A stretch of DNA of 21,936 bases. It comes from a virus. This document shows positions 2,309 to 21,936 of the stretch, one piece after another; positions within the stretch are counted from its first letter, which is position 1; the number at the start of each line of letters is the position of its first letter. A program made the translations under genes and the position numbers. The DNA lies in IMG/VR virus record IMGVR_UViG_3300038441_001201, positions 1 through 21,936 of that record. The stretch is one strand, 5' to 3'. The notes under the pieces are model-generated. The model was not told where the DNA came from, did not search any database, and saw nothing but the letters and a program-made list of their open reading frames with translations.

Positions 2309-3121
2309 ATGCCCAGTGGCGGCAAGATCAGCGAGGCGCAGATCTACGGGTTGACGATCCGAGAGTCTGCCAACGACGGCAGTGACTTCACCAATCCGGC
2401 TGCCGACTTCCGGCGTGTCTTCCTCGGTGAGGACGGCGAGTGGCATTCCAAGGACTCGGCTGGGTCTGTGGCAGGCTTCGCTGGCTCAGGCATCTCGGCG
2501 ACGCTCGCGGACGCCGCTGGCGATACCCTCGTCGCGAGCGGTGCGGATGCATGGGCCAGGCTCGCTCTTGGTGCGGCAGGTGGGCGGTATTCGCGCATCA
2601 ATGGTGCCGTGGCGTGGAACGCGGGTACGTCATTCCCCACGGCGGCGACCGGCGACATCTATCACCGGACGGACCTGACGCCCGCTGAGTGGCGCTACGA
2701 CGGTACGCGGTGGCGCTGCACCTGCGTCCATACGGTGGCTGCGGGTGTTTACGACACGACGGCAGCGAGCATCGTTCTGCCCGCGACGATCTTCGACGTA
2801 GCAGGGCTGGACGTGTGGGCTATCGATGCGCCTTGCGGCTCTGCGCTCACGTCAGGGACTCACAACGGGAGCAACCACTACACCGTCGATGTCTACAAGA
2901 TGAACGCAGCTGGATCGGGTGGCACCGGCTCCGCGATAGTATCGACCACGACCCATACGATCGGAACGGGTACGAACAATCTCCAGAGTTTGCCGCTCGC
3001 GATCGGGGCCGTCGTGGATGTATCCGCGACGCCTGCCATCGTCTTCATCCTCGGAGAAGTAGGCACCGCAGGTTCCCTCCGCTTCTGGGGCTCGTTCCGG
3101 TTCCAGTACATCGCGACGTGA
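2309..3121 (+). CDS. Probable phage tail/appendage structural protein
   Basis: 270 residues. A strong AGGAGG lies at 2298-2303, five bases before the ATG. The N-terminus is repeat-like. Around residues 55-140 it carries the pattern GDTLVASGADAWARLALG followed by GDIYHRTDLTPAEWRYDGTRW, which recurs in tailed-phage fibre and minor structural proteins: a short beta module ending in a YDGTRW-type turn. The C-terminal half (from about 140) is a hydrophobic, beta-rich domain ending in FWGSFRFQYIAT, typical of trimeric or jelly-roll receptor-binding tips, though that comparison is inference. Its TGA overlaps the GTG of the next gene (GTGA). No catalytic motif is seen. Confidence 0.65.
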   Translation: MPSGGKISEAQIYGLTIRESANDGSDFTNPAADFRRVFLGEDGEWHSKDSAGSVAGFAGSGISATLADAAGDTLVASGADAWARLALGAAGGRYSRINGAVAWNAGTSFPTAATGDIYHRTDLTPAEWRYDGTRWRCTCVHTVAAGVYDTTAASIVLPATIFDVAGLDVWAIDAPCGSALTSGTHNGSNHYTVDVYKMNAAGSGGTGSAIVSTTTHTIGTGTNNLQSLPLAIGAVVDVSATPAIVFILGEVGTAGSLRFWGSFRFQYIAT

Positions 3122-4134
3122 CCCTGGTCACGGGGCCGCTGTTCACGGGTGAGGCGACGCACGACTGGCTGACATGGACGCCTGACGGCTCGCCCGCCAC
3201 GATCGACAGCGGGGCCAACTACAAGGCGTTCCCCGGGGTCGCACGTCTGACCGCGACGAAACTCCTGCTCGTCTACTACTCGGGGACCGCGCACGATGCC
3301 AACGGCGTCGTGACCGGACGCATCGGGACCCTGACCGGGACATCGGTGTCGTGGGGCTCGCCGTGGGACATCTACGACCATGCCGAGGACGTGCGCTGTG
3401 AGGATGCCGTCTCCGTCATCGGTTCCACCGTCGTCATCATGGCACGGCTCTACAACGGGCTCGTCAATCATGTCCCGTTCATCCTCGTCTGCGATGACGT
3501 GTCCCCGATCCTGTCGAGCTCGTCGACCTGGACGCAGGTGGACATCGCCTTCTCCGAGGGTGCTGACGAGAACCTCGGTATCGGGCGTGTCATGCGGCTG
3601 CGGAACGGCACGTACCTCATCGCAGCCACGGCCTGGACCAGCGGGACTTCCACGGCGGGCGTCCTCATCAGCGACGACCTCATGGACTGGACCGCACCGA
3701 CATGGGTACCCATCGGGTCATCCGGGTCACTGTCCGAGATCTGCGTGGACGAACTGGCGGACGGCTCCCTGTTGGCGACTCTGCGCCGGGAGACGGGAAC
3801 GCAGACGTACCAGGCCACATCGCAGGACCACGGTGCGACCTGGACGACACCTGCTGCTGCCCACGACGGCTACGGTCTGCCGATGTTCCGGGCGCTCACC
3901 GATAGGACGCTGCTGACGGTCGGGCGTGATCCGGCGACCTCCGACATGGAGTGGCGTGTTTCGCAGACCCACGGTGTGACGTGGGAGAACGAGTCCATCC
4001 TGGACACGACGGGGACGCTGGGTGTGTACGCCAGCCTTGTGCAGCTGGACCACGACAACGTCCTCTGCGTCTACGGCGTCGAGGTCTCAGCGTCCGACGC
4101 GGACCTCTATTCGCAGGTGTTCACGCGGACGTAG
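3118..4134 (+). CDS. Sialidase-like (Asp-box/BNR) beta-propeller tail protein
   Basis: 338 residues from the GTG at 3118, which overlaps the preceding stop by four bases (GTGA). A clear Asp-box, SQDHGATW, sits at residues 235-242. A degenerate copy, SQTHGVTW, is at 282-289, and a weaker SDDLMDW is at 185-191. These are the beta-hairpin turns of sialidase-fold propeller blades, and the length fits one six-bladed propeller. The segment SEICVDELADGSLLATLRRE (207-226) closely follows the sialidase pattern that supplies the catalytic Glu and the second Arg. The N-terminal Arg-Ile-Pro motif is not recognisable at the expected place (YKAFPGVARL), so catalysis is uncertain. As the last gene of the tail operon it may bind or trim host-surface glycans. 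It has no signal peptide, consistent with a virion-borne protein. Confidence 0.75.
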   Translation: MTLVTGPLFTGEATHDWLTWTPDGSPATIDSGANYKAFPGVARLTATKLLLVYYSGTAHDANGVVTGRIGTLTGTSVSWGSPWDIYDHAEDVRCEDAVSVIGSTVVIMARLYNGLVNHVPFILVCDDVSPILSSSSTWTQVDIAFSEGADENLGIGRVMRLRNGTYLIAATAWTSGTSTAGVLISDDLMDWTAPTWVPIGSSGSLSEICVDELADGSLLATLRRETGTQTYQATSQDHGATWTTPAAAHDGYGLPMFRALTDRTLLTVGRDPATSDMEWRVSQTHGVTWENESILDTTGTLGVYASLVQLDHDNVLCVYGVEVSASDADLYSQVFTRT

Positions 4135-4183: not shown

Positions 4184-4282
4184 ATGGATGAGAAGCTCCT
4201 GCGGGACATCGCGGTCGTCGTGATCGCACTGCTCCTGATCTTCCGGCCATTCCCACGCAAGAGCAAGGACGAGGAGCCCTAG
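4184..4282 (+). CDS. 32-residue single-pass membrane microprotein
   Basis: A small frame begins MDEKLLRD, followed by a hydrophobic stretch IAVVVIALLLIF and a basic tail FRPFPRKSKDEEP. That is the layout of a single membrane helix with charged flanks. Its TAG (4280-4282) and the TAG of the leftward dioxygenase gene (4279-4281 on the other strand) share the bases CTA, so the two genes meet tail to tail. The ribosome-binding site is weak (GGGATGG before the ATG). The gene could be the last member of the tail operon. Function unknown; confidence is limited by its size. Confidence 0.45.
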   Translation: MDEKLLRDIAVVVIALLLIFRPFPRKSKDEEP

Positions 4283-5256
4283 CCAGCCTCCAGGGCCATC
4301 TCCTCGACGGGATCCAGCAGGACCCTGTTCGGGCCTCGCTCCACCGCCATGCGCCGCTCGTTGAAGGCTTCGGCGCGGGCCATCTCCTCATCGGGCGAGC
4401 CGCACTCGGCCATCTTGGTCCGGTAGTAGCAGACGATGCTGATCCGCTCCGAGCCGCAGGTATCGTGGCCTGCGTAGTACTTCTTCGAGCCGATCGGGTT
4501 GCCGCAGACGTCGCAGCGCATGAACGTATTGCCGTGCCACTCGTGGGCATCCATGAGCAGCAGGTCGCCATGCTTCATGTCGACTCCCAGGCGGTACTCC
4601 GGGAACACGAACACCCCACCCGAGTAGTTTCCATAGCGCAGAACGGCCAGGGTGCTGAAGCCTTCCTCCAGGTCGCCGGAGTCGGTATGGATGCCGGTGG
4701 GGTAGGAGTTGTTCACCGTGACGGTGGTGAAGGCCGTACCTGGCACCACCCAGTAGGGATCGGTGTCCCGGACGCGGCGCATCTGCTCGGCATAGCGCTC
4801 GGGCACATGCTGCCGGAAGTAGCCATCGATGGCCCGGAACAGGGGGAACAGGCCACTGAACTGCTCGGTCTCCCTGCCTGACCAGGCGGTGAGGCGGCAG
4901 TACTGCTTCGACCCGGAGGCTTCGAAGGCTCCGACGATGGCGGAGCTCACCGTGGGGGCACGGCTGCGCGTCTGATCCTCGAAGTTCCTGTACCTTCGAC
5001 CACCACTGGCGGCTCCGCGGTTGTCCGTCTCCATGCCGCGCAGCTCGTGCAGGGTCGCATACGACTCCGCCAGCAGGGCCTCATCGAGGGCACCCGGCAG
5101 GTAGATCGCGAGCAGCTTGCCATCGGCGCGATTGACGATAGTAGGGCCGGTCATGCGGATGTCGTAGTTGTCCGGCCCCATGATCTGACCCTTGTGCTCC
5201 GCCACATCGGCGACGCGCGTCCGGATACGGAGCTCGCTGAACGTGTAGTCCTTCAC
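4279..5256 (-). CDS. TET/JBP-family 2-oxoglutarate/Fe(II) DNA base dioxygenase
   Basis: 325 residues from the GTG at 5256, chosen because it overlaps the previous stop as GTGA; another GTG at 5268 would add four residues. The core reads TTVTVNNSYPTGIHTDSGDL, with an iron-binding HxD (His190, Asp192). Then come strands GFSTLAVLRYGNYSGGVFVFPEY, a distal His in DAHEWHGN (His241), and Arg271 in RISIVCYYR for 2-oxoglutarate. This order and spacing match the JBP/TET thymine or 5-methylcytosine dioxygenases. An insert between the distal His and the Arg holds C-x2-C and H-x2-C (Cys248, Cys251, His264, Cys267), a possible zinc site. Expected reaction: oxidation of the base methyl group in DNA to hydroxymethyl. 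Neighbouring kinase and AADT-like genes point to thymine as substrate, but this is inferred. Confidence 0.8.
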   Translation of the reverse strand: MKDYTFSELRIRTRVADVAEHKGQIMGPDNYDIRMTGPTIVNRADGKLLAIYLPGALDEALLAESYATLHELRGMETDNRGAASGGRRYRNFEDQTRSRAPTVSSAIVGAFEASGSKQYCRLTAWSGRETEQFSGLFPLFRAIDGYFRQHVPERYAEQMRRVRDTDPYWVVPGTAFTTVTVNNSYPTGIHTDSGDLEEGFSTLAVLRYGNYSGGVFVFPEYRLGVDMKHGDLLLMDAHEWHGNTFMRCDVCGNPIGSKKYYAGHDTCGSERISIVCYYRTKMAECGSPDEEMARAEAFNERRMAVERGPNRVLLDPVEEMALEAG

Positions 5257-5435
5257 TGCCCACCCCACTTGATGCGCTTCGGTGCGGGGACGCCAGCCTG
5301 CGGCAGACCCGGTGGGGTCTTACGCTGGACCTGTGCCATGGGCGTCCCACCGAAGGCTCGCATATCGGGAGTATATCTGCCAGGGCCAAGATCCACACTC
5401 TCGGTGTGACCGGGCCAGTTCCGTCGTATCTTCAT
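5253..5435 (-). CDS. Small basic protein between kinase and dioxygenase
   Basis: 60 residues, Pro/Gly/Arg/Lys rich (begins MKIRRNWPGH, ends KRIKWGGQ), with no cysteine and no hydrophobic segment. The start is secured by AGGAAGGAG followed by AACGGA directly before the ATG. The stop overlaps the dioxygenase start by four bases, implying translational coupling. The basic, disordered character could suit a nucleic-acid-associated accessory peptide; no family is recognised. Confidence 0.65.
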   Translation of the reverse strand: MKIRRNWPGHTESVDLGPGRYTPDMRAFGGTPMAQVQRKTPPGLPQAGVPAPKRIKWGGQ

Positions 5436-5449
5436 TCCGTTGCTCCTTC

Positions 5450-5965
5450 CTATGCCCGGAACGCAAGGGCGACCGGGTCGTCCATCATCGCGACCTGCAC
5501 ATCCAGTGGCAATGCTGCATCGATGGTGGCAGTGACGTAGGGTGCCAGGTTGCGGACCTTGGTGGCCCGACCCTTGAGCCAGGTCGCATCCTGATCCGAG
5601 CCGCGCAGCGCTCGCCGCATCGCGGCCAGGCGTGATCCTTCCAGCGAGTAGACCGTGACCGTGTAGCCGAGGCGCTTGGCAGCAGCGAAGAACGTCTCGT
5701 TGCCAAGGCGGTCGCCTTCGCCCAAGACGAGTGCGGGGCCGACGGCTTCCAGGTATTGCTGCACGGCAGGCTGGATCGACATAGGCAGGGAGTCGGTCCC
5801 ACCGAAGTCCTCCCGTGCCTTGCCGAGCTCGGTCACCCCATTGTCGTGGCGGCGCAGGTAGAAGGGATCAGCCGTCGTCTCCGGCTCCGAGCCAGCAGTG
5901 AGTCGATCCACGAGGGTCGTCTTGCCGACTCCCGGTTCGCCTACGATGTACGTCAGATACTTCAT
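5450..5965 (-). CDS. P-loop kinase, 5-hydroxymethyl-dU DNA kinase-like
   Basis: 171 residues; the ATG at 5965 overlaps the previous stop (ATGA). A Walker A motif, GEPGVGKTT, is at residues 9-17 after a first beta strand (KYLTYIV). Further motifs are GKAREDFGGTDSLPMSIQPA, then ALVLGEGDRLGNETFF (Walker B-like strand with acidic residues), then YTVTVYSLE, RRALRGSDQDATWLKGR and TKVRNL. This motif set corresponds to the phage P-loop kinases found with thymine-hypermodification enzymes, which phosphorylate 5-hydroxymethyluracil in DNA. Adjacent dioxygenase and AADT-like genes support that role. A nucleotide kinase acting on free nucleotides is the main alternative. Confidence 0.75.
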   Translation of the reverse strand: MKYLTYIVGEPGVGKTTLVDRLTAGSEPETTADPFYLRRHDNGVTELGKAREDFGGTDSLPMSIQPAVQQYLEAVGPALVLGEGDRLGNETFFAAAKRLGYTVTVYSLEGSRLAAMRRALRGSDQDATWLKGRATKVRNLAPYVTATIDAALPLDVQVAMMDDPVALAFRA

Positions 5966-6162
5966 CCGAGCCTCCTCGCTAGGGCATGGGCATGCCGCCA
6001 TGCATCGTTCGGGTCGACCCCGAGCGGCAGCGGGGTATCCAGGTCCTCGGCTAGCTGCCGCAGGGCCGGAGCCGAGTAGTTCGCCAGCAGCCAGGTCCGC
6101 GTCCGATCTACGGTGGCCCGGAGCTGGTCAGCCTGCGGCTGATGCCGCTGCTCGTAGTTCAT
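5962..6162 (-). CDS. Small helical protein in the modification cassette
   Basis: 66 residues, mostly predicted helix (QLRATVDRTRTWLLANY, ALRQLAEDL, AWRHAHALARRLG), with no cysteine. AGGAGG nine bases before the ATG (on the minus strand) supports the start at 6162 rather than an in-frame ATG upstream. It overlaps the end of the phosphatase gene by 35 bases and the kinase start by four. Its position inside the cassette suggests an accessory or partner protein; no family recognised. Confidence 0.65.
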   Translation of the reverse strand: MNYEQRHQPQADQLRATVDRTRTWLLANYSAPALRQLAEDLDTPLPLGVDPNDAWRHAHALARRLG

Positions 6163-6619
6163 CCGGGGGGTCCTCCTCGATAGCAGGGAGCGAGCGTAGG
6201 TAGGCCTCGAAGGCAGGATTGGCAACCGCACTCGGCTTCACAGCCCTGACGTGGGCCAGGGCCACCGCACCGGGACAGCCATGCAACTCCCGGACCACGA
6301 GGGCTGCGACGAACATCGACCTGTTACGGCCCGCATGGCACTGTATGAGGACGCGGCCTCCGAGAGCGATCTCCTGGAGGCAGCGGGCCACCGCAGCCGT
6401 TACCCGCGCCACGTCGATAGCCTTCCCATCTGGCATCGGGAACCAGCTCACATGCACTCCATAGAGAGACCAGTTCACATCGAGCGTCCGGTTCCAGACG
6501 CTCACGGCGTGGCTGATGCCGTACTCGCTGACGATTGCCCGGTGCTGCCCAGGCGTCGCCCGGAGCGTATTCGCACTCACGTACAGCTGGCCCGGTAGGA
6601 CCGTTACGATGCGGGCCAT
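6128..6619 (-). CDS. Dual-specificity-type protein phosphatase fold
   Basis: 163 residues from the ATG at 6619, overlapping the AADT-like gene by 16 bases. The sequence RVLIQCHAGRNRSMFVAAL (residues 89-107) carries the C-x5-R-S signature of the cysteine phosphatase superfamily, with nucleophile Cys94 and phosphate-binding Arg100. The His normally before the Cys is Gln93. A likely general acid is Asp64 in WFPMPDG, and the preceding strands (GISHAVSVWN) fit a compact DSP domain. Length is typical for a single domain. Proteins are the usual substrates of the family. Its position between hypermodification enzymes makes a phosphorylated base intermediate, nucleotide or modification enzyme a conceivable target, which is inference only. 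Confidence 0.8.
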   Translation of the reverse strand: MARIVTVLPGQLYVSANTLRATPGQHRAIVSEYGISHAVSVWNRTLDVNWSLYGVHVSWFPMPDGKAIDVARVTAAVARCLQEIALGGRVLIQCHAGRNRSMFVAALVVRELHGCPGAVALAHVRAVKPSAVANPAFEAYLRSLPAIEEDPPDELRAAASAAG

Positions 6620-7605
6620 CGCACCGGGTTCGCAAGGTCGGTGGTGGCGAGATGGTCGAAGAGGAGATCCGTCCAGACATAGCCGAAACGCGGTAGGGCC
6701 TGGCCGCACCCCCGCGGCTCGCTCCAGCCACGCAGCTCGCCGAGGGCAACGGTCGGGTGGGCATGTTTCCGGATCTCCCACATGGCCGACTCGAAGGCCG
6801 GATCCACTGCCCGGACCTTGCTGTGGTACTCGATCTCGCTGTCCAGGCTGCGGCCGGGATACTGCTTGCCGGCCCAGGCCTGCTTGTACTCGCAGAGCCA
6901 GACCTGGATCGCGAACATCGAGTGTCCGGTCTCCGCAGCCAGCTCCGCACCGAGGTGCTCGAAGGCTGGCAGGTCGGCGAGGAGGCGCAACAGCGACCAC
7001 CCCGCATGCATCAGGGCGAGCCCTTCCGCAGGGGACCAACCATCCTTCGCCCGCATGTCGGGCTGCGCAGTGACGTACCCGAGCCGATGGAGGGCCTCGA
7101 GCAGCTTCATCTTGATGTACCGCCCGACCCCGTAGACGGCATCGATCGAGCGCCAGGCATCCTCGTAGCGGGCACGGGCCGTCGGGACGTGGCGGGTCCA
7201 GGTGGCCCACGTCCGGAGGTAGCGGAGGGTCTTCTCCGGGGTGCGGATGGCCCGTCGTTCGCGACGGTACGGGAGCTTGTGTTCCCGCAGCCAGACGAGC
7301 ACCTCCTCATCCTCGGCAGCGGCGAAGATGTGGGCGGGCCAACTCTGCCAGAAGTACTCCGCAGCAGGGCCGTTGTACCAGGCTCCGTAACAGCCGACCA
7401 GCCAGAGCTGTTCCCGCGGGCTCAACTCCTTGGCTTGCTCGACGATGTTGACCATGTGATAGTCCGGCCCACCAAGGGCACCATCGTAGGTCGTGAAATC
7501 CGCGAACCAGGCCCGATGGGCCTCGGGGGTGGGGGCAAGTCCCACTTCGGACCTTGCGGACCGGGAAGGGTCGTTTCCGGTAGCCTCGAAGGATGCTACG
7601 GTCAT
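6604..7605 (-). CDS. aGPT-PPlase/AADT-like DNA base-modifying protein
   Basis: 333 residues; the ATG at 7605 overlaps the previous stop (ATGA). The protein is largely helical. A helix-hairpin-helix-like element, VYGVGRYIKMKLLEAL (157-172), recalls DNA glycosylase-type folds. Preceding helices contain REQLWLVGCYGAWYNG (64-79), and the C-terminal part has WLCEYKQAW (236-244) followed by KQYPGRSLDSE (247-257). This combination matches my recollection of phage alpha-glutamyl/putrescinyl-thymine pyrophosphorylase-like proteins, later renamed amino acid:DNA transferases, which act on pyrophosphorylated 5-hydroxymethyluracil in DNA. The neighbouring 5hmU-kinase-like and JBP-like genes strongly support the assignment. 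Which amine is transferred cannot be told. Confidence 0.7.
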   Translation of the reverse strand: MTVASFEATGNDPSRSARSEVGLAPTPEAHRAWFADFTTYDGALGGPDYHMVNIVEQAKELSPREQLWLVGCYGAWYNGPAAEYFWQSWPAHIFAAAEDEEVLVWLREHKLPYRRERRAIRTPEKTLRYLRTWATWTRHVPTARARYEDAWRSIDAVYGVGRYIKMKLLEALHRLGYVTAQPDMRAKDGWSPAEGLALMHAGWSLLRLLADLPAFEHLGAELAAETGHSMFAIQVWLCEYKQAWAGKQYPGRSLDSEIEYHSKVRAVDPAFESAMWEIRKHAHPTVALGELRGWSEPRGCGQALPRFGYVWTDLLFDHLATTDLANPVRWPAS

Positions 7606-7883
7606 GCCGCAACCTCCCGCGCAGCCCGACAGGTCACAAGGTCGCAGCCCTTGAAGGTCAGGCCCTGGCCGCGGTGCCAGACGAGGTGCCGTGCATGCTG
7701 AAAGCGGAGCATCCGGGCACGAGCATCCCGATCCCCCTGCTGGTAGGCTCGCTCCAGTGGGGCGAGGTGATCGGGGGTGCTGAGCCCGAGGCACGCTGCC
7801 ATGAATGCCGGATCGTGGCAGCCTGCCTCCAGGCACTCGGAGCGGGCCTTGTCACGGGACTCGATCACGCAGAAGACGCTCAT
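7602..7883 (-). CDS. Cysteine-containing small protein in the cassette
   Basis: 93 residues. ATG at 7883 overlaps the ParB-like stop, and the stop overlaps the AADT-like start (both ATGA), placing it firmly in the operon. It is Arg/His/Cys rich (FCVIESRDKARSECLEAGC near the start, FKGCDLVTCRAAREVAA at the end) and mainly helical in between. Six cysteines could form metal sites but are not in a textbook spacing. Possible nucleic-acid or partner-binding role; no family recognised. Confidence 0.65.
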   Translation of the reverse strand: MSVFCVIESRDKARSECLEAGCHDPAFMAACLGLSTPDHLAPLERAYQQGDRDARARMLRFQHARHLVWHRGQGLTFKGCDLVTCRAAREVAA

Positions 7884-8890
7884 GCTGCGCAGTCCGCGCA
7901 GAGGGTGAGCTCCGCGGAGTAGGTCGGATCGGTATGCCAGTTGCCATCCTTGGTGCTGAGGCCGCAGATGCTGAGGCGCTGGTCCTCCTTGCGGAGCCGG
8001 TGGTAGATGTCGCCGCGGCGCTCGCCGTTCAGGTCGTACATGACCCACGGTTTGCTCGTCGGATCGGTGACCAGAGCCGAGGCTCGGAGCGGACTCGCGA
8101 CCGCCTTCGGCTCGGCCTGCGGCATCTCGTCGCTGGAGTCGAGCATCTCCTCCAGTCCGACCTGACCCGGCACGACCGGAGGTGGGGGTGGCCCTGCGGG
8201 GACGGCTTCGCCTGCCTCGGCTGCGACGCAGCGCTTCAGGGCCTCCAGGCAGACATGCGCTGTGGACTTCTGGCCCCAGGCCTTTGCGAGCGTCTTGACC
8301 GCCTCCATGAAGACCTGATGGTCGACCACGCTGAAAGTCAGTGGGGCCTCCTTCATCTTGACCGCACTGGTCTTGGCCTGGCGGGCAGCCTCGGCATCCT
8401 CCTCACCGGGCCGATCCCCAAGGAAGGCTGCATCGGTGACCCCGGTGATGTCGACGAGGCCATTGGCCTGCTCCACCACATCGGCAATCTCATCCATCGA
8501 CCATATGCTGAGCTTGCTGTCCGGGCCGAGCATCTCGAGCAGGGCAGCAGCCGCCTTCGCATCGTTGCTCGCGAGATCGGAGGTCAGATTGTCGTCCAGT
8601 AGGTAGGCAGCTGCCTCGTCATCGGCGGCATCGATGATGATCGCAGCGATGGAGGGCCAGCCGAGCTTCTTGGCAGCCTGCCAGGTGCCGTTGCCCTTGA
8701 GGATGTAGTTGGTCCCACGCTGGATGACGATGGGACTGCGCTGCTGGTGCAACTGGAGCGAGGCTGCGATCTTGTCGAGCCGATGCCGCCTGGCATTGCC
8801 CGGGTAGGGGGTGAAGTCGTCGATGGGGCGCTCGAAGACTCGCAGCTCGGGTGCGATCTTCGCTTCGAAGCCGATGGTGGTGTCGCTCAT
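7880..8890 (-). CDS. ParB/sulfiredoxin-fold protein
   Basis: 336 residues. The start is preceded by AAGGAG and AACGGA next to the ATG. Residues 15-105 form a ParB N-terminal-like domain: FERPIDDFTPYPGNARRH, then LDKIAASL, SPIVIQRG, ILKGNGTWQAAKKLGWPSI and AYLLDDNLTSDLAS. The classical ParB box GxRR is replaced by KGNGTW, as in many phage and methylase-associated members. A predicted helical region, a Pro-rich linker (about 230-240) and a C-terminal part ending in LTLCADCAA follow. This superfamily includes ATP- or CTP-using enzymes and DNA-binding proteins. Location at the head of the hypermodification cassette suggests a role in modification or its targeting rather than partitioning; no ParA partner is present. 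Confidence 0.75.
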   Translation of the reverse strand: MSDTTIGFEAKIAPELRVFERPIDDFTPYPGNARRHRLDKIAASLQLHQQRSPIVIQRGTNYILKGNGTWQAAKKLGWPSIAAIIIDAADDEAAAYLLDDNLTSDLASNDAKAAAALLEMLGPDSKLSIWSMDEIADVVEQANGLVDITGVTDAAFLGDRPGEEDAEAARQAKTSAVKMKEAPLTFSVVDHQVFMEAVKTLAKAWGQKSTAHVCLEALKRCVAAEAGEAVPAGPPPPPVVPGQVGLEEMLDSSDEMPQAEPKAVASPLRASALVTDPTSKPWVMYDLNGERRGDIYHRLRKEDQRLSICGLSTKDGNWHTDPTYSAELTLCADCAA

Positions 8891-11891: not shown

Positions 11892-12196
11892 GCGTCCCAC
11901 ACCATCGGGTACAGACGGGTGAGATAGGCCCGCTGTGCTTCGAGTCCGCGGCGGGAGGTGGCCCAGCCACCATCGATGTGATGGTAGGCACAGACCGTGA
12001 CGAGGTGGGCCTCGTCGTCCGGGGCCTTCTTGCCCATCATCGGCTCCTCCTTCACATGGTTCAGGGTGAGCATGCCCTTGCAGGGTCGGTTCTCCGACAG
12101 GTCCAGGCGTGGGGCCATGCAGCCGAGGTCGCGGTTGGAGACGCGCACCCGGAGGGCCGTCCAGCCATCGGCCTGTGCGGAGAGGATGTCGGTCAC
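11888..12196 (-). CDS. Small HNH endonuclease
   Basis: 102 residues from the GTG at 12196, which overlaps the RecT stop (GTGA). The stretch GMLTLNHVKEEP supplies the first conserved His (His47), and HLVTVCAYHHIDGGWATSRRG supplies the later metal-binding His (about 72-73) with Cys69. Spacing is as in short phage HNH proteins. The N-terminal part (WTALRVRVSNRDLGC) forms a small beta segment. The likely activity is a metal-dependent nick or cut in DNA, perhaps in recombination or packaging. Its place beside RecT suggests recombination or replication. Confidence 0.65.
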   Translation of the reverse strand: MTDILSAQADGWTALRVRVSNRDLGCMAPRLDLSENRPCKGMLTLNHVKEEPMMGKKAPDDEAHLVTVCAYHHIDGGWATSRRGLEAQRAYLTRLYPMVWDA

Positions 12197-13044
12197 TCCG
12201 GCTCCCCACTGACAGCAGCGAGGGCCAGGTCGGCGGCAGGTGAGCGTGGTGGTGCCGGAGCTTCGCGCTCGTCCTCGATGGAGTCCAGCCGATTGAGGAC
12301 CTGCATCTGCGGCGAGGTGGGCAGGCGCTTCCGTAGCCGCCGCAGGACCGTCTTCCGGCCCATCTCACCGGGCGCATCGCGCCAGGCATTCACCCGGTTC
12401 CCACCCGCTCGGGAGTACTGGGCACGGACCTTCTGCACCTCGGCCTCGGTCATGACCTCCAGCATGCAGAAGCCATCGTTCATGATCGCATAGGCATACC
12501 AGTAGCGGAAGCCACCCCGGTCTTCGACGTTGCCATCCTCGTCCTTCTCGGCCTGGAATGGCGTGTGCTTGAACCAGCCACCCTGCCGATCCCACCCGTA
12601 GGCGAATTCGTCGCGGTCGTAGACCACCTGGCAGTCGACGTTGCGGACCAGGCCGGAGTTACGGATCTGCCGCAGCTGGCCGCGGTACTCCACCAGCACG
12701 GTCGCAATGCCACCATACTCCACGATGGCAGCCTCACCCGTGAACGGCTCTAGCCCGAGGGAGGCGAGATCCTTGACGGCCTGCACCAGCGACTCCGGGG
12801 TGGCCTTCGCGAGCAGGTCGGACTGCTTCGCAAGGAGACTGAAGACGACCCCCATGAACCGCTCGGCGAGAGCGGGGTCCTTGCCCAGCATGGCACGGAC
12901 GGCCTTCATGTCGGGGCTGTTCTTGCTGAAGGCGGATGTCACCTTCTCGTAGGTCGCAGTCGCCTTCGCTGGAGCTGCGACCAGGGCACGGGTGACTGGA
13001 GGTGGGCCAGGGTCTTCTTGGGTGAAGCGTGGGTCGGTCATCAT
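12193..13044 (-). CDS. recT: RecT-family single-strand annealing protein
   Basis: 283 residues; the ATG at 13044 overlaps the exonuclease stop (ATGA). The family core is evident: FMGVVFSLLAKQSDLLAKAT, SLVQAVKDLASLGLEPFTGE, then IVEYGGIATVLVEYRGQLRQ and SGLVRNVDCQVVYDRDEFAYG. A C-terminal helical and basic part (EMGRKTVLRRLRKRLPTSP) and an acidic tail follow. RecT anneals complementary single strands and works with a 5'-3' exonuclease; here the partner is the gene immediately upstream. Length is close to the usual 270-300 residues. Confident assignment. Confidence 0.9.
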   Translation of the reverse strand: MMTDPRFTQEDPGPPPVTRALVAAPAKATATYEKVTSAFSKNSPDMKAVRAMLGKDPALAERFMGVVFSLLAKQSDLLAKATPESLVQAVKDLASLGLEPFTGEAAIVEYGGIATVLVEYRGQLRQIRNSGLVRNVDCQVVYDRDEFAYGWDRQGGWFKHTPFQAEKDEDGNVEDRGGFRYWYAYAIMNDGFCMLEVMTEAEVQKVRAQYSRAGGNRVNAWRDAPGEMGRKTVLRRLRKRLPTSPQMQVLNRLDSIEDEREAPAPPRSPAADLALAAVSGEPE

Positions 13045-14066
13045 TCCTCCGTGAGTGCGTAATGCATGCGCCGCGAACCGGGTCGCGGCCTGCTGTAGAG
13101 GCCTTCCAGGGTGGGATTGGCCAACTGGATATGCCCCAGGCGGGCGACGTACTCCGGATCGTCACCGGGATCGGCCATTGCGAGCAGCTCGTCCACCATC
13201 TCGGCACGGATCGCTGCGACGCGCTCCCAGTCGAAGTCGACCCCATCCTTGCTCTTCTTCCAGGTGATGGTGCCGAAGGGTCCCTCCACGCCATCGGCAT
13301 CCCCGATGAGCTCGCGCACCCGGTTCTCGAGCTTCGCCTGCACCGCCTGCGCCTGGGTCACGTTGTAGCGGGTCTTGACCAGCTCGTCGATGATGGCCTC
13401 CTGCTCCGGGGTGGCGACGCGGATGGTGCCATCGTTCTGCGGGAAGTGCCGCCGGAGCCAGGCCGAGTCCAGGTCAGAGCCGCTGACCGGTGGGGGGATG
13501 CGGGCCTCGTACCCTGCCCAGAACCGAGCTAGCTCCTCCACCAGCGAGGTGAGGAACGGCTCGTTGCGCGGCACGATGTAGCGGCGGAAGGTGTGATGCC
13601 CGAACAGCACCGCGACATCGGTCGTATGCGCATCGGTGACCAGCATCTGATGCTGGACCTGTGCCCAGACATCGGGTGGGATGTCCTCCGTATCGGCATC
13701 GCCCCAGCCGCGCATGTAGGCACGGGTCTTGCACTCGACGATGTAGCGGGAGCCACCCGGTCCGAGCTTGCGGTAGTCCAGGTGGCAGAACAGATACGGG
13801 ATGGTGGGATGCCAGTGCGTGCGCCGGTCAGCGCGGACGCGATCCCCCGTGGCGACCTGATACATCTCCGCGACCGCTGCCTGCAATCGTAGCCCGAGCC
13901 AGGCAGGCAGACTCATGCCGCTGTCGGGCTGCGGATCGACCAGGCGCTCGTAGACGGTCAGCGCCGTGCCGTACTTCGACAGGCCGAGGATCTTGGGCGT
14001 ATCGGTGGACCCGATGCCCCGACCCGCATCCCGCGCATCGGCCAGGGCCTCGATGGCATCGGTCAT
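13041..14066 (-). CDS. YqaJ/lambda-exonuclease-family recombination nuclease
   Basis: 341 residues; ATG at 14066 overlaps the stop of the upstream gene (ATGA). The N-terminus GRGIGSTDTPKILGLSKYGT is the typical YqaJ start. Acidic metal ligands appear in order: Glu67 (AAVAEMYQVATG), Asp97 (LFCHLDYR), and Glu111-x-Lys113 in YIVECKTRAYMRG. VWAQVQHQMLVTDAHTTDVAVL is the conserved substrate-binding helix. The last third is a helical extension (YNVTQAQAVQAKLENRVREL) often seen in phage members. Expected reaction: processive 5'-3' degradation of double-stranded DNA to leave 3' tails for RecT. Direct adjacency to recT completes the SynExo pair. Confidence 0.9.
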   Translation of the reverse strand: MTDAIEALADARDAGRGIGSTDTPKILGLSKYGTALTVYERLVDPQPDSGMSLPAWLGLRLQAAVAEMYQVATGDRVRADRRTHWHPTIPYLFCHLDYRKLGPGGSRYIVECKTRAYMRGWGDADTEDIPPDVWAQVQHQMLVTDAHTTDVAVLFGHHTFRRYIVPRNEPFLTSLVEELARFWAGYEARIPPPVSGSDLDSAWLRRHFPQNDGTIRVATPEQEAIIDELVKTRYNVTQAQAVQAKLENRVRELIGDADGVEGPFGTITWKKSKDGVDFDWERVAAIRAEMVDELLAMADPGDDPEYVARLGHIQLANPTLEGLYSRPRPGSRRMHYALTEE

Positions 14067-14296
14067 GATCGCTGGAACTCCGTATAGACCGCGACCCAGG
14101 CCTCATGCTCCGGATGATCCGGTTGGCCCCAGCCGATGGGAGCGGAGTGGAAGAGTTGCCGGACCAGTGGCCTCAAGCGCTCGCGTTCCATCTCCGCTGC
14201 CTCGCACTCGACCGCATCGAGGTGCTTGATCCACAAGTCAGCAGGCGGTAATCCCTCGAGATCGGCCAGCATCCGCTGCCTCGCTGTCCATGTCAT
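14063..14296 (-). CDS. Unknown small Trp/Glu-rich protein
   Basis: 77 residues; ATG at 14296 overlaps the previous stop, and its TGA overlaps the exonuclease start (both ATGA). Mainly helical and charged (LDAVECEAAEMERERLRPL) with a Trp-rich end (WGQPDHPEHEAWVAVYTE). No motif recognised; a cofactor of the nuclease/annealase pair is possible given the coupling. Confidence 0.6.
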   Translation of the reverse strand: MTWTARQRMLADLEGLPPADLWIKHLDAVECEAAEMERERLRPLVRQLFHSAPIGWGQPDHPEHEAWVAVYTEFQRS

Positions 14297-14538
14297 CGTG
14301 CTGCCTCCAGTGCCGCGGCTCGCCGCAGGACCCGTTGCCGACGTTCGGCGACCGCGACTCGGCTGATACCGAGCCTCCGAGCGATGACCGCATTGCGCTC
14401 ACCGATCATGGAGAGGAACACCGCATCCTCCGCAGCAAGGTCCTGCGCCCACTTCAAGACCAGGGCTGCGCGATAGTGCTCCCGGCAGTGCTGGTTCCGA
14501 TTGGCGATGGGCTTGCCGCAGTCCGGGCAGGCCTTCAC
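14293..14538 (-). CDS. Zinc-knuckle plus helix-turn-helix protein
   Basis: 81 residues from a GTG at 14538 overlapping the preceding stop (GTGA); a longer frame exists but is shadowed by the upstream gene. The first 20 residues, VKACPDCGKPIANRNQHCRE plus His, supply C-x2-C and H-C-x2-H metal ligands. The second half reads FLSMIGERNAVIARRLGISR followed by VAVAERRQRVL, a clean helix-turn-helix of the sigma-region-4 or Trp-repressor type. Likely a DNA-binding regulator of early genes; target unknown. Confidence 0.7.
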   Translation of the reverse strand: MKACPDCGKPIANRNQHCREHYRAALVLKWAQDLAAEDAVFLSMIGERNAVIARRLGISRVAVAERRQRVLRRAAALEAAR

Positions 14539-14744
14539 TTCCGCAGTTCTCCCAAGATATCGTCGACGAGCTGCGCGACGGAGTCCCCCTCGGCGACCAG
14601 GACGTCCCCGTTCCCGGTCATGACCTCCAGGCTGTAGACAACCGGGTCCACCAAACGGGCCAGGCCCCAGTTCGGGACCTCGTTCGGATAGGCGGCCCGA
14701 ATGGCGGCATCCAGCTCTTCGAGGCGTTCCCATTGCTGCTTCAT
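14535..14744 (-). CDS. Unknown protein, paralogue of the gene at 15202
   Basis: 69 residues; ATG at 14744 overlaps the previous stop (ATGA). The sequence WERLEELDAAIRAA, VPNWGLARLVDP and LVDDILGELRK lines up with WERLAELGPALRSS, RPVWGLERYDHP and AVENILGQLRT of the neighbour upstream. The two genes are thus tandem paralogues, this one being a shorter version without the N-terminal cysteine region. Small alpha/beta protein; no function recognised. Confidence 0.65.
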   Translation of the reverse strand: MKQQWERLEELDAAIRAAYPNEVPNWGLARLVDPVVYSLEVMTGNGDVLVAEGDSVAQLVDDILGELRK

Positions 14745-15202
14745 CGCGCAATCCGGACGTTGACCGGCTCGAATTCGCTCCCCTCGACTCCGATGCCGTC
14801 CGTGGTGACCCGATCACCCTCGGGGGGAGGGTTGGTTACTCCCTGGCGCTCCTGGGCCGCCGTTCGTAGTTGTCCGAGGATGTTCTCCACGGCATTCACG
14901 ACGGTCACCCGGAGGTCGCTCGCCATCATCTCGGGGTAGGTCGGTGGCTGGCCGGCATCCCAGACCTCGATCTCGTAGCCGGTTGGGGGATGGTCGTAGC
15001 GCTCCAGGCCCCACACCGGACGGGCGAACAGGCCACTACTTCGCAGGGCCGGACCGAGCTCCGCGAGGCGCTCCCACCTCTGGGGAGGCTCGGCCTTGCC
15101 GCAGGCGCAGGTCCAGGCATAGTCGCCATCTTCCATCTGGCCAGGAGTCGGGGCCTGGAGGTATTCGTGGTCATGTCCGGTCATACGCTGCCTCTCGTTC
15201 AT
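14741..15202 (-). CDS. Unknown protein with N-terminal Cys pair, paralogue of the gene at 14744
   Basis: 153 residues; ATG at 15202 overlaps the VRR-NUC stop (ATGA). The first 40 residues contain HDHEYLQAP and YAWTCACGKAEP, a possible half zinc site with nearby His. Then comes the module shared with the downstream neighbour (about residues 40-115). A polar C-terminus ends VNVRIAR. Soluble. Function unknown. Confidence 0.65.
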   Translation of the reverse strand: MNERQRMTGHDHEYLQAPTPGQMEDGDYAWTCACGKAEPPQRWERLAELGPALRSSGLFARPVWGLERYDHPPTGYEIEVWDAGQPPTYPEMMASDLRVTVVNAVENILGQLRTAAQERQGVTNPPPEGDRVTTDGIGVEGSEFEPVNVRIAR

Positions 15203-15579
15203 GGGTAACCTCGTAGGGTGCGATAGATCGAGCCAGAGTCCAGGTCGTGCGGGTACCAGAGGTAGGCCTCCTGCCCCGCAGTTGCGAACAGCTCGAGCAT
15301 GCGGACCTGCTCGTCCCGCAGGTGCCCGCTGTCGCTCTTCAGCTCGGCGAAGAGCACGCGCTGCTGCTTCGGGTGGACGAGGAACAGGTCGGGCCAGCCT
15401 GCGGCCAGGTCGCCCCGCGTTGGGGTGCGCCAGCGGCGACGGCTGTCCTGGAGCGGCTTCACGTACATGCCGCGCCATCCGAGCAGATGAGCCATGCAGG
15501 TGCCATCGCAGCGGGGTAGGAAGTACTCGTCCGAGCCGGCCTCGCACAGGATGGCACGACGGAGGTCAGCCTCCAGCAT
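15199..15579 (-). CDS. VRR-NUC domain nuclease
   Basis: 126 residues from ATG at 15579; a GTG at 15582 would add one residue. The gene overlaps the one upstream by 14 bases. Catalytic pattern of the PD-(D/E)xK VRR-NUC family: an N-terminal Glu (EADLRRAI), then RGDLAAGWPDLFLVH with Asp64, RVLFAELKSDSGHL with Glu79-x-Lys81, and RDEQVRMLELF with Gln91. Single-domain phage members of this length are thought to act on branched or flapped DNA during replication or recombination. The two extra cysteines (RCDGTC) are not part of the usual motif. Confidence 0.85.
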   Translation of the reverse strand: MLEADLRRAILCEAGSDEYFLPRCDGTCMAHLLGWRGMYVKPLQDSRRRWRTPTRGDLAAGWPDLFLVHPKQQRVLFAELKSDSGHLRDEQVRMLELFATAGQEAYLWYPHDLDSGSIYRTLRGYP

Positions 15580-15886
15580 CACGCAGCCAGGCGACGATGC
15601 GTTCGGGCGACCAGTGGTGATCGTCGTTCAGATGGATGACGGCAGCGATCGACCCACAACCGGCTGGGCACAGGATGGGTTCGGAGGTCACGCTCCACGA
15701 GCCGGTGAAACCACCGAGCATCGCGAAGCCGACCACGCAGGCCGCAGTGATGGGTTGCTTGGTGGCCTCCTCCCAGGGGACCTCACGACGACCGTTCCGG
15801 TAGTACGCACCATGCGCGACCTTCAACTCGGGGTAACGGGTGCGGGCCTTCTCGATCGCATCGGCTAAGGCAGCCGTATCGCTCAT
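15566..15886 (-). CDS. Unknown protein, 106 residues, Cys/His-containing
   Basis: ATG at 15886 overlaps the upstream stop (ATGA). An N-terminal helix (ALADAIEKARTRYPELK) is followed by AYYRNGRREVPWEEATKQP. A region ILCPAGCGSIAAVIHLNDDHHW with C-x3-C and several His, and a terminal helix WSPERIVAWLRDAGG, complete it. The terminal helix recalls short phage proteins whose EQIADWLR-type segments pack on a strand pair. Possibly metal-binding. Not assigned. Confidence 0.6.
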   Translation of the reverse strand: MSDTAALADAIEKARTRYPELKVAHGAYYRNGRREVPWEEATKQPITAACVVGFAMLGGFTGSWSVTSEPILCPAGCGSIAAVIHLNDDHHWSPERIVAWLRDAGG

Positions 15887-21233: not shown

Positions 21234-21377
21234 ATGGCGAGCATCGGCGAGGCCAAGATGGACCTGACGATCAGGCAGCGCTGGGACGCGACCGACCCGT
21301 TGACGGCGGTCGCGTTCTGGACGTTGATGCTGACCCTCGGGTGCATCGTCGGATACGTGCTGGGGCAGGTCGCTTGA
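21234..21377 (+). CDS. 47-residue single-pass membrane protein
   Basis: ATG at 21234 lies one base after the holin-like stop (TGAGATG), giving tight coupling. A polar N-terminus (SIGEAKMDLTIRQRWDATD) precedes one membrane span (VAFWTLMLTLGCIVGYVLGQ). This layout suits an accessory holin or antiholin, but no family is recognised. Its TGA overlaps a TTG that could start the next gene. Confidence 0.6.
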   Translation: MASIGEAKMDLTIRQRWDATDPLTAVAFWTLMLTLGCIVGYVLGQVA

Positions 21378-21379
21378 AG

Positions 21380-21936
21380 ATGGGCCTGGCGACCATCGAA
21401 GCCTATAGCGGTGCCCCCGTGGCGCAGGCTGACCTCGTCGCGCAGTGGATCAGCCTGACGCCTGGGTGGGCAGGCATGAGCTACCGCTTCTCGTGGGGCA
21501 GGCCCGTCATCTATCTGGAGTCCCACTTAGGGCCAGCCGGGTACCAAGACCTGATCGAGGAGCGATACGACCGTGCCCTCGGGGACATCAAGGCCGATCT
21601 GCCGGTCGATGCTATCGTGCGCTGGGACCACGAGATGGACGGCCCTGCCAACGAGTGGCGCACCTGGGGCGGCATGGAGCCGCGTCGGTACAAGCGAGGC
21701 TGGCGGCATGTCGCCGAGATCATGGGGCCGATGTTCTGGTGCCCGACCAGCGTCAAGAGTCGGTGGGATCCGTACTTTCCGGGAGCGGAGTACGTGAGCC
21801 ATGTCGGCTTCGATTACTACGATCACGGTAAGCGCATCCCGTTGACCGAGGGCCTCAAGACGAGGCTGGCGGCCCTGCGCAGGCTGGCCCCGGACAAGCC
21901 GCAGCTGCTCGGGGAGCTCGGGTCGGCCGCCATCAA
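21380..21936 (+). CDS. GH26-like glycoside hydrolase, 3' end outside window
   Basis: At least 185 residues; the frame is open to the right edge. ATG at 21380 is used; a TTG at 21374 overlapping the previous TGA is the alternative. Motifs in order: GMSYRFSWGRPVIYLES, IVRWDHEMDGPANEWRTWGG with proposed acid/base Glu85, RYKRGWRHVAEIMG, MFWCPTS, YFPGAEYVSHVGFDYYDHG and KPQLLGELGS with proposed nucleophile Glu179. This is the pattern of the GH26-type (beta/alpha)8 barrel. Its likely substrate is a polysaccharide of the host wall or capsule. It may be part of lysis or carried on the virion. Confidence 0.75.
   Translation, partial: MGLATIEAYSGAPVAQADLVAQWISLTPGWAGMSYRFSWGRPVIYLESHLGPAGYQDLIEERYDRALGDIKADLPVDAIVRWDHEMDGPANEWRTWGGMEPRRYKRGWRHVAEIMGPMFWCPTSVKSRWDPYFPGAEYVSHVGFDYYDHGKRIPLTEGLKTRLAALRRLAPDKPQLLGELGSAAI

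Follow-up and report, generated by a model that had tools for sequence, protein, structure and literature searches.

Several described systems come close to the gene cluster reported here, a putative thymine-hypermodification operon on the minus strand (8890-4279) of a viral DNA stretch of 21,936 bases. This stretch, hereafter the window, is the whole of IMG/VR record IMGVR_UViG_3300038441_001201 and is possibly a fragment. The phages M6, PaMx11, ViI and phiW-14 share with the window a transferase of the ADDT family and a phosphorylated 5-hydroxymethyluracil (5hmU) intermediate. However, they obtain 5-hydroxymethyldeoxyuridine in the nucleotide pool from a deoxyuridine monophosphate (dUMP) hydroxymethylase resembling thymidylate synthase (TS), the M6 kinase belongs to PF18748, and neither a TET/JBP dioxygenase nor a dual-specificity phosphatase (DSP) was found with these transferases. 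In the kinetoplastid base J pathway and in phage systems with TET/JBP and a TAGT-like glycosyltransferase (TAGT being the name that we assume for this enzyme in the relatives), TET/JBP hydroxylates the base in DNA first, as proposed for the window. Unlike the window, they use a glycosyltransferase for the decoration, and among relatives of the window dioxygenase this enzyme almost always replaces the kinase and ADDT pair. Both hypermodification from TET/JBP products and operons of TET/JBP, ADDT and kinase genes were reportedly predicted by Iyer et al. in 2013. The basic idea of this combination is already known, and operons of this type were annotated earlier.

Rhodococcus phage Tonitrus has a five-gene possible thymidine hypermodification system, annotated in 2025 (PMC11955845, PP978825). 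As in the window, genes for ParB, TET/JBP, aGPT-Pplase2/ADDT and a Ploopntkinase3 kinase are clustered there with no TS-family gene; unlike the window, Tonitrus has no phosphatase gene, an ADDT of another clade and another gene order, and its annotation came without chemistry. In Mycobacterium phage Phelemich and Microbacterium phages Kozie and MO526, the TET/JBP-type, ADDT and kinase genes are likewise adjacent, in clusters that adjoin the terminase, but these phages have an extra flavin adenine dinucleotide (FAD) oxidoreductase and no DSP, and the genes are labelled QueTGT, terminase small subunit or hypothetical. Two labels in the Phelemich record (NC_022063.1) are likely misannotations, repeated in related mycobacteriophages: gp2 (810-1673), called queuine tRNA-ribosyltransferase, gives a weak TET/JBP match under the cut-off, and gp5 (3330-3869), called terminase small subunit, is actually the kinase. 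The identification of the kinase as a terminase small subunit, as in some phage records and PHROG 800, was rejected, since the gene adjoins ADDT in Phelemich and Kozie and the M6 kinase carries the same annotation.

The window operon quite probably serves post-replicative hypermodification of thymine. We computed the order of the genes, their families and folds, and their co-occurrence, and from these we infer the activities, the target base and the product. As proposed, the TET/JBP enzyme would hydroxylate thymine at its methyl group in the phage's own DNA, yielding 5hmU, the P-loop kinase would phosphorylate this to 5-phosphomethyluracil, and the ADDT-type transferase would exchange the phosphate for an amine, which is probably an amino acid or a derivative of one. 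Because thymine would be hydroxylated in finished DNA, a modified nucleotide pool would be unnecessary. The likely purpose is to shield the phage DNA from host nucleases. An earlier note on this DNA had proposed the same route, i.e., 5hmU made on DNA, phosphorylated and substituted by an amine. It is supported by sequence, by fold and, most of all, by the finding that TET/JBP and TS genes exclude each other, although the note had left out the phosphatase and placed the kinase in the wrong family.

Loci for comparison were collected by a dioxygenase search (31 viral loci), an ADDT alignment (35) and a kinase alignment (80), followed by iterated local profiles. TET/JBP was present in 71 and a TS-like hydroxymethylase in 17 of the 105 ADDT-bearing locus groups, and no group had both. 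The subset collected through ADDT only gave 12, 16 and none, respectively (Fisher p 1.6e-5, ignoring relatedness). The kinase type tracks the front end: in the ADDT-collected groups, all TET/JBP loci have Ploopntkinase3, and all TS loci have HMUDK. Since the flanks of a locus could hide genes, whole records were also searched with Pfam models for 25 members of the window transferase clade, and TET/JBP was found in 13, TS in 11, neither in one and both in none. On the transferase tree, a quick tree with SH-aLRT support only, about six changes of front end are needed. Among complete phages, Phelemich, Kozie and MO526 have ADDT with a TET/JBP-type match under the Pfam cut-off, and Tonitrus combines ADDT with a Tet-like protein annotated in its own record; no TS-family gene or C5-methyltransferase was found in these four genomes. 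In phiW-14, M6 and ViI, ADDT goes with TS. As the earlier note had stated, a TS-like dUMP hydroxymethylase is absent from the 21.9-kb window record, possibly a fragment, and it is also absent from the whole records of the TET/JBP relatives. Because TET/JBP and the TS-like enzymes exclude each other, TET/JBP appears to replace the hydroxymethylase, which points to thymine, not cytosine, as its target, provided that the TS-like enzymes are of M6 type. One such enzyme, in locus L082 (G051:C1:33291-36053), has WPYDVV with Asp where the others keep Asn. A C5-methyltransferase-like gene lies upstream, with ADDT, DSP and kinase genes alongside, and this locus is perhaps a cytosine version. The Asp stands at a position which we take to be typical of dCMP hydroxymethylases.

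The window dioxygenase passes the Pfam Tet_JBP cut-off (60.6 bits against 34.9). The iron and 2-oxoglutarate site HxD...H...R on the DSBH fold, already noticed in the earlier note, consists of H190, D192, H241 and R271 in the 325-residue protein, all invariant across 48 relatives. Its structural model (pLDDT 93) matched TET2 with a Z score of 22.5 and NgTET1, CMD1 and CcTet with about 20, while AlkB and FTO folds reached at most 15. The start is the GTG at 5256, which overlaps the upstream stop codon as GTGA; an alternative start lies at 5268.

The kinase carries GEPGVGKTT and WLKGR and matches Ploopntkinase3 (PF18751) with 77.7 bits (cut-off 27), not HMUDK (PF18748), the family matched by M6 gp54. 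The profiles of the window kinase and of the M6 5hmU-DNA-kinase family nevertheless align, with a probability of 97% and an E value of 1e-10. Thus, the 5hmU-type kinase of the earlier note keeps its motifs and a distant relation to PF18748, but not membership in that family. A tested 5hmU-DNA kinase phosphorylates 5hmU, and not 5-hydroxymethylcytosine, in DNA (PMC6457204).

The transferase (7605-6604) holds LCEYKQ...QYPGRSLD. It scores 18.1 bits against Pfam ADDT (PF18724), under the cut-off of 26.2, whereas a close relative in locus L011 (E 1e-53 to the window protein) exceeds this cut-off, and a profile of the family finds two solved ADDT proteins with E values of 8e-12 (25qc) and 1.6e-5. 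The best match of its model (pLDDT 93) was PUGT, the 5-phosphomethyl-dU glycinyltransferase of PaMx11 (gp46; PDB 8z2m, 8z2n), with a Z score of 17.7 over 239 residues at 3.0 Å (8z2n); the second best was a DNA glycosylase with a Z score of 10.2. PUGT and the window protein share the fold and the LC..K...YP motif region, but they are only about 14% identical, and a DSP partners every transferase of the window clade. The AADT-like identity given in the earlier note is therefore carried by the L011 intermediate, the profiles and the solved fold, and not by the protein's own ADDT score. On the proposed route, the transferase would move an amine onto phosphorylated 5hmU. Scans of parts of the window recognised no FAD, pyridoxal phosphate or radical-SAM gene, and a simple amine adduct is therefore possible as the final base. 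The ADDT-like protein alone as a query recovered no relatives; the dioxygenase query gave entry to them.

The DSP gene (6619-6128) and three small open reading frames (ORFs) were overlooked in the earlier note, whose four proteins and motifs were otherwise found as described. The DSP has the active site CHAGRNR, and the D in PMPDG is the candidate general acid. Cys94 and Arg100 of its CX5R motif are invariant in all 34 aligned DSPs; 33 of these 34 match DSPc, and the window protein itself stays under the cut-off (E 6e-5, 23.3 bits against 33.5). In the transferase tree, the window falls in a clade of 39 rows with full support, and a DSP accompanies the transferase in 39 of 39 rows, one fusion counted, while no transferase outside this clade in the tree has one. 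In the fusion (L080/L081), the DSP follows the transferase in a single frame of 625 residues. At 80% identity the clade has 13 clusters with TET/JBP, 13 with TS plus the fusion, and three unassigned, so that the front ends alternate within it and the DSP never separates from the transferase. In the DSPs of L002, L084, L120/L121 and L079, the general-acid Asp is seemingly replaced, and this subgroup includes TAGT-bearing loci.

The DSP is probably a further chemical step of the pathway, acting on what the window transferase clade uses or makes. Because it stays with the transferase, and not with the kinase or the 5hmU source, a role on the transferase's donor or product is favoured over clearing of what the kinase makes. 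Removal of a phosphate borne by the donor would seem to have about an even chance. The fuller proposal, which we hold tentatively, is that the DSP is an obligatory, overlooked step: the clade would attach a phosphorylated amine (e.g., phosphoserine or phosphoethanolamine), in exchange for the 5-phosphomethyluracil phosphate, after which the DSP would strip the second phosphate on DNA to give a base not yet seen. This back end would be fed either by a TS-like enzyme in the nucleotide pool or by TET/JBP on finished DNA. The partnership of DSP and transferase, their fusion and the quantified front-end exchange were not described in a literature search of limited reach, and an earlier mention is possible.

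The DSP might instead clear unsubstituted 5-phosphomethyluracil back to 5hmU, letting RNA polymerase read the DNA. A template with phosphorylated 5hmU was transcribed at 37% of unmodified DNA (PMC6457204), and the DSP adjoins the kinase in several loci, as this function would suggest. On the other hand, a general need of this kind would predict a DSP in other ADDT clades of the tree, which also have a kinase and carry none; moreover, the fusion partner is the transferase, not the kinase, and the DSP is kept when the kinase family is exchanged. We regard clearing as unlikely, though it deserves weight. There is still less in favour of an operon that acts on host DNA or RNA, or marks a few sites as a signal, in place of bulk protection of the phage genome. 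ParB could target few sites, and base J replaces only about 1% of kinetoplastid thymine (PMC10276184), whereas the characterised ADDT phages replace much of their thymine, 30 to 40% in M6 and ViI (PMC9599517).

An improbable alternative is that the dioxygenase acts on 5-methylcytosine, and that the kinase and transferase decorate 5-hydroxymethylcytosine. The nearest solved folds of the dioxygenase are indeed 5-methylcytosine oxidases, D195 aligns with the position that presumably contacts the base in TET2 and NgTET1, and L082 combines its Asp-type enzyme with a C5-methyltransferase gene. However, a C5-methyltransferase is absent from the window record, from 30 of 31 related records and from complete phages with the same module. 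In addition, the same transferase clade pairs elsewhere with M6-type TS-like enzymes, M6 DNA contains modified thymidine (PMC6449724), and the title of the solved ADDT relative calls it a 5-phosphomethyl-dU transferase. An attempt to deduce the target base from positions in the active site of the dioxygenase was rejected, because these positions did not separate the loci by back end. Finally, it is very unlikely that the DSP is an unrelated protein phosphatase for host takeover; its family lies near ordinary dual-specificity protein phosphatases, but the DSP pairs one to one with a single ADDT clade in unlike phages and under two front ends, and this pairing, together with the fusion to the transferase, led us to reject a neighbour by chance.

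Several points weigh against the assignment of the operon to thymine hypermodification. The kinase lies outside PF18748, the family with a tested member, and its specificity is an extrapolation; the base-facing D195 and R279, aligned to TET2, do not settle thymine versus cytosine. Collecting loci partly via dioxygenase and kinase searches inflates the TET/JBP count, and relatedness among the loci also affects the counts. A hydroxymethylase may lie elsewhere in the phage genome if the window is a fragment. In the literature covered, chemistry was reported neither for this operon nor for any phage with TET/JBP and ADDT.

The ParB-fold protein named in the earlier note was confirmed by PHROG, with Pfam ParB_N under its cut-off. 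Among 84 ParB-bearing groups, 80 have TET/JBP and none has TS. ParB accompanies TET/JBP under any decoration, i.e., a TAGT-like glycosyltransferase, kinase with ADDT, or the FkbM methyltransferase of HTVC112P. This constancy with TET/JBP, and never with TS, suggests that ParB serves the dioxygenase, which it would probably recruit or target. In Pelagibacter phage HTVC112P (3336-5558), ParB, TET/JBP and the FkbM-family methyltransferase stand in a row, a possible alternative decoration of the oxidised base. Loci L002, L084 and L053/L054 have a TAGT-like glycosyltransferase besides kinase, ADDT and DSP, which suggests mixed or further decoration.

The genes follow one another from ParB to TET/JBP as listed from top to bottom in the table. 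The junctions are mostly ATGA, GTGA or few-base overlaps; the only gap, a short one, follows the kinase, and the set therefore reads as a single translationally coupled operon, in agreement with the coupling of four proteins on one strand seen earlier. The 93-residue ORF showed 44% identity over 38 residues to an ORF of locus L001. Elsewhere in the window there are recombination genes on the minus strand (12193-15582), i.e., RecT (12193-13044), a YqaJ exonuclease (13041-14066) and a VRR-NUC nuclease (15199-15582), as well as a BNR-repeat protein (2689-4134) and, on the plus strand, a glycosyl hydrolase family 26-like protein (21341-21936) that runs off the record.

Table. Genes of the putative operon in the window, in order of transcription (aa, amino acids).
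Feature	Position	Strand	Remarks
ParB-fold protein, 336 aa	7880..8890	-	PHROG 723 E 5e-29; Pfam ParB_N 20.9 bits, under cut-off
Small ORF, 93 aa, no assigned function	7602..7883	-	overlaps ParB stop and ADDT start (ATGA)
ADDT-type amino acid:DNA transferase (predicted), 333 aa, DNA-glycosylase-like helical fold, helix-hairpin-helix	6604..7605	-	YGVGRYIKMKLLEALHRLG
Dual-specificity (CX5R) phosphatase DSP, 163 aa, CHAGRNR active site	6128..6619	-	overlaps ADDT gene
Small ORF, 66 aa, no assigned function	5962..6162	-	overlaps DSP end and kinase start
P-loop kinase, Ploopntkinase3, 171 aa, candidate 5hmU-DNA kinase	5450..5965	-	Pfam PF18751 E 1.1e-21
Small ORF, 60 aa, no assigned function	5253..5435	-	stop overlaps dioxygenase start (GTGA)
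TET/JBP-family Fe(II)/2-oxoglutarate dioxygenase, 325 aa	4279..5256	-	Pfam Tet_JBP E 1.4e-16

Removal of phosphate from modified DNA was attempted by one group, at first without success (PMC6457204). The phosphatase of the window clade would add a new type of reaction to the pathway and could serve as a tool enzyme for stripping phosphate from modified DNA. For the cultured phages Tonitrus, Phelemich, Kozie and MO526, the proposed route predicts bases that derive from 5hmU and arise from thymine in finished DNA with no hydroxymethylase. The exchange of front ends gives TET/JBP a probable role on thymine by genetics, not by sequence likeness, and its repetition inside one transferase clade indicates that the DNA-modification pathways of phages are modular.

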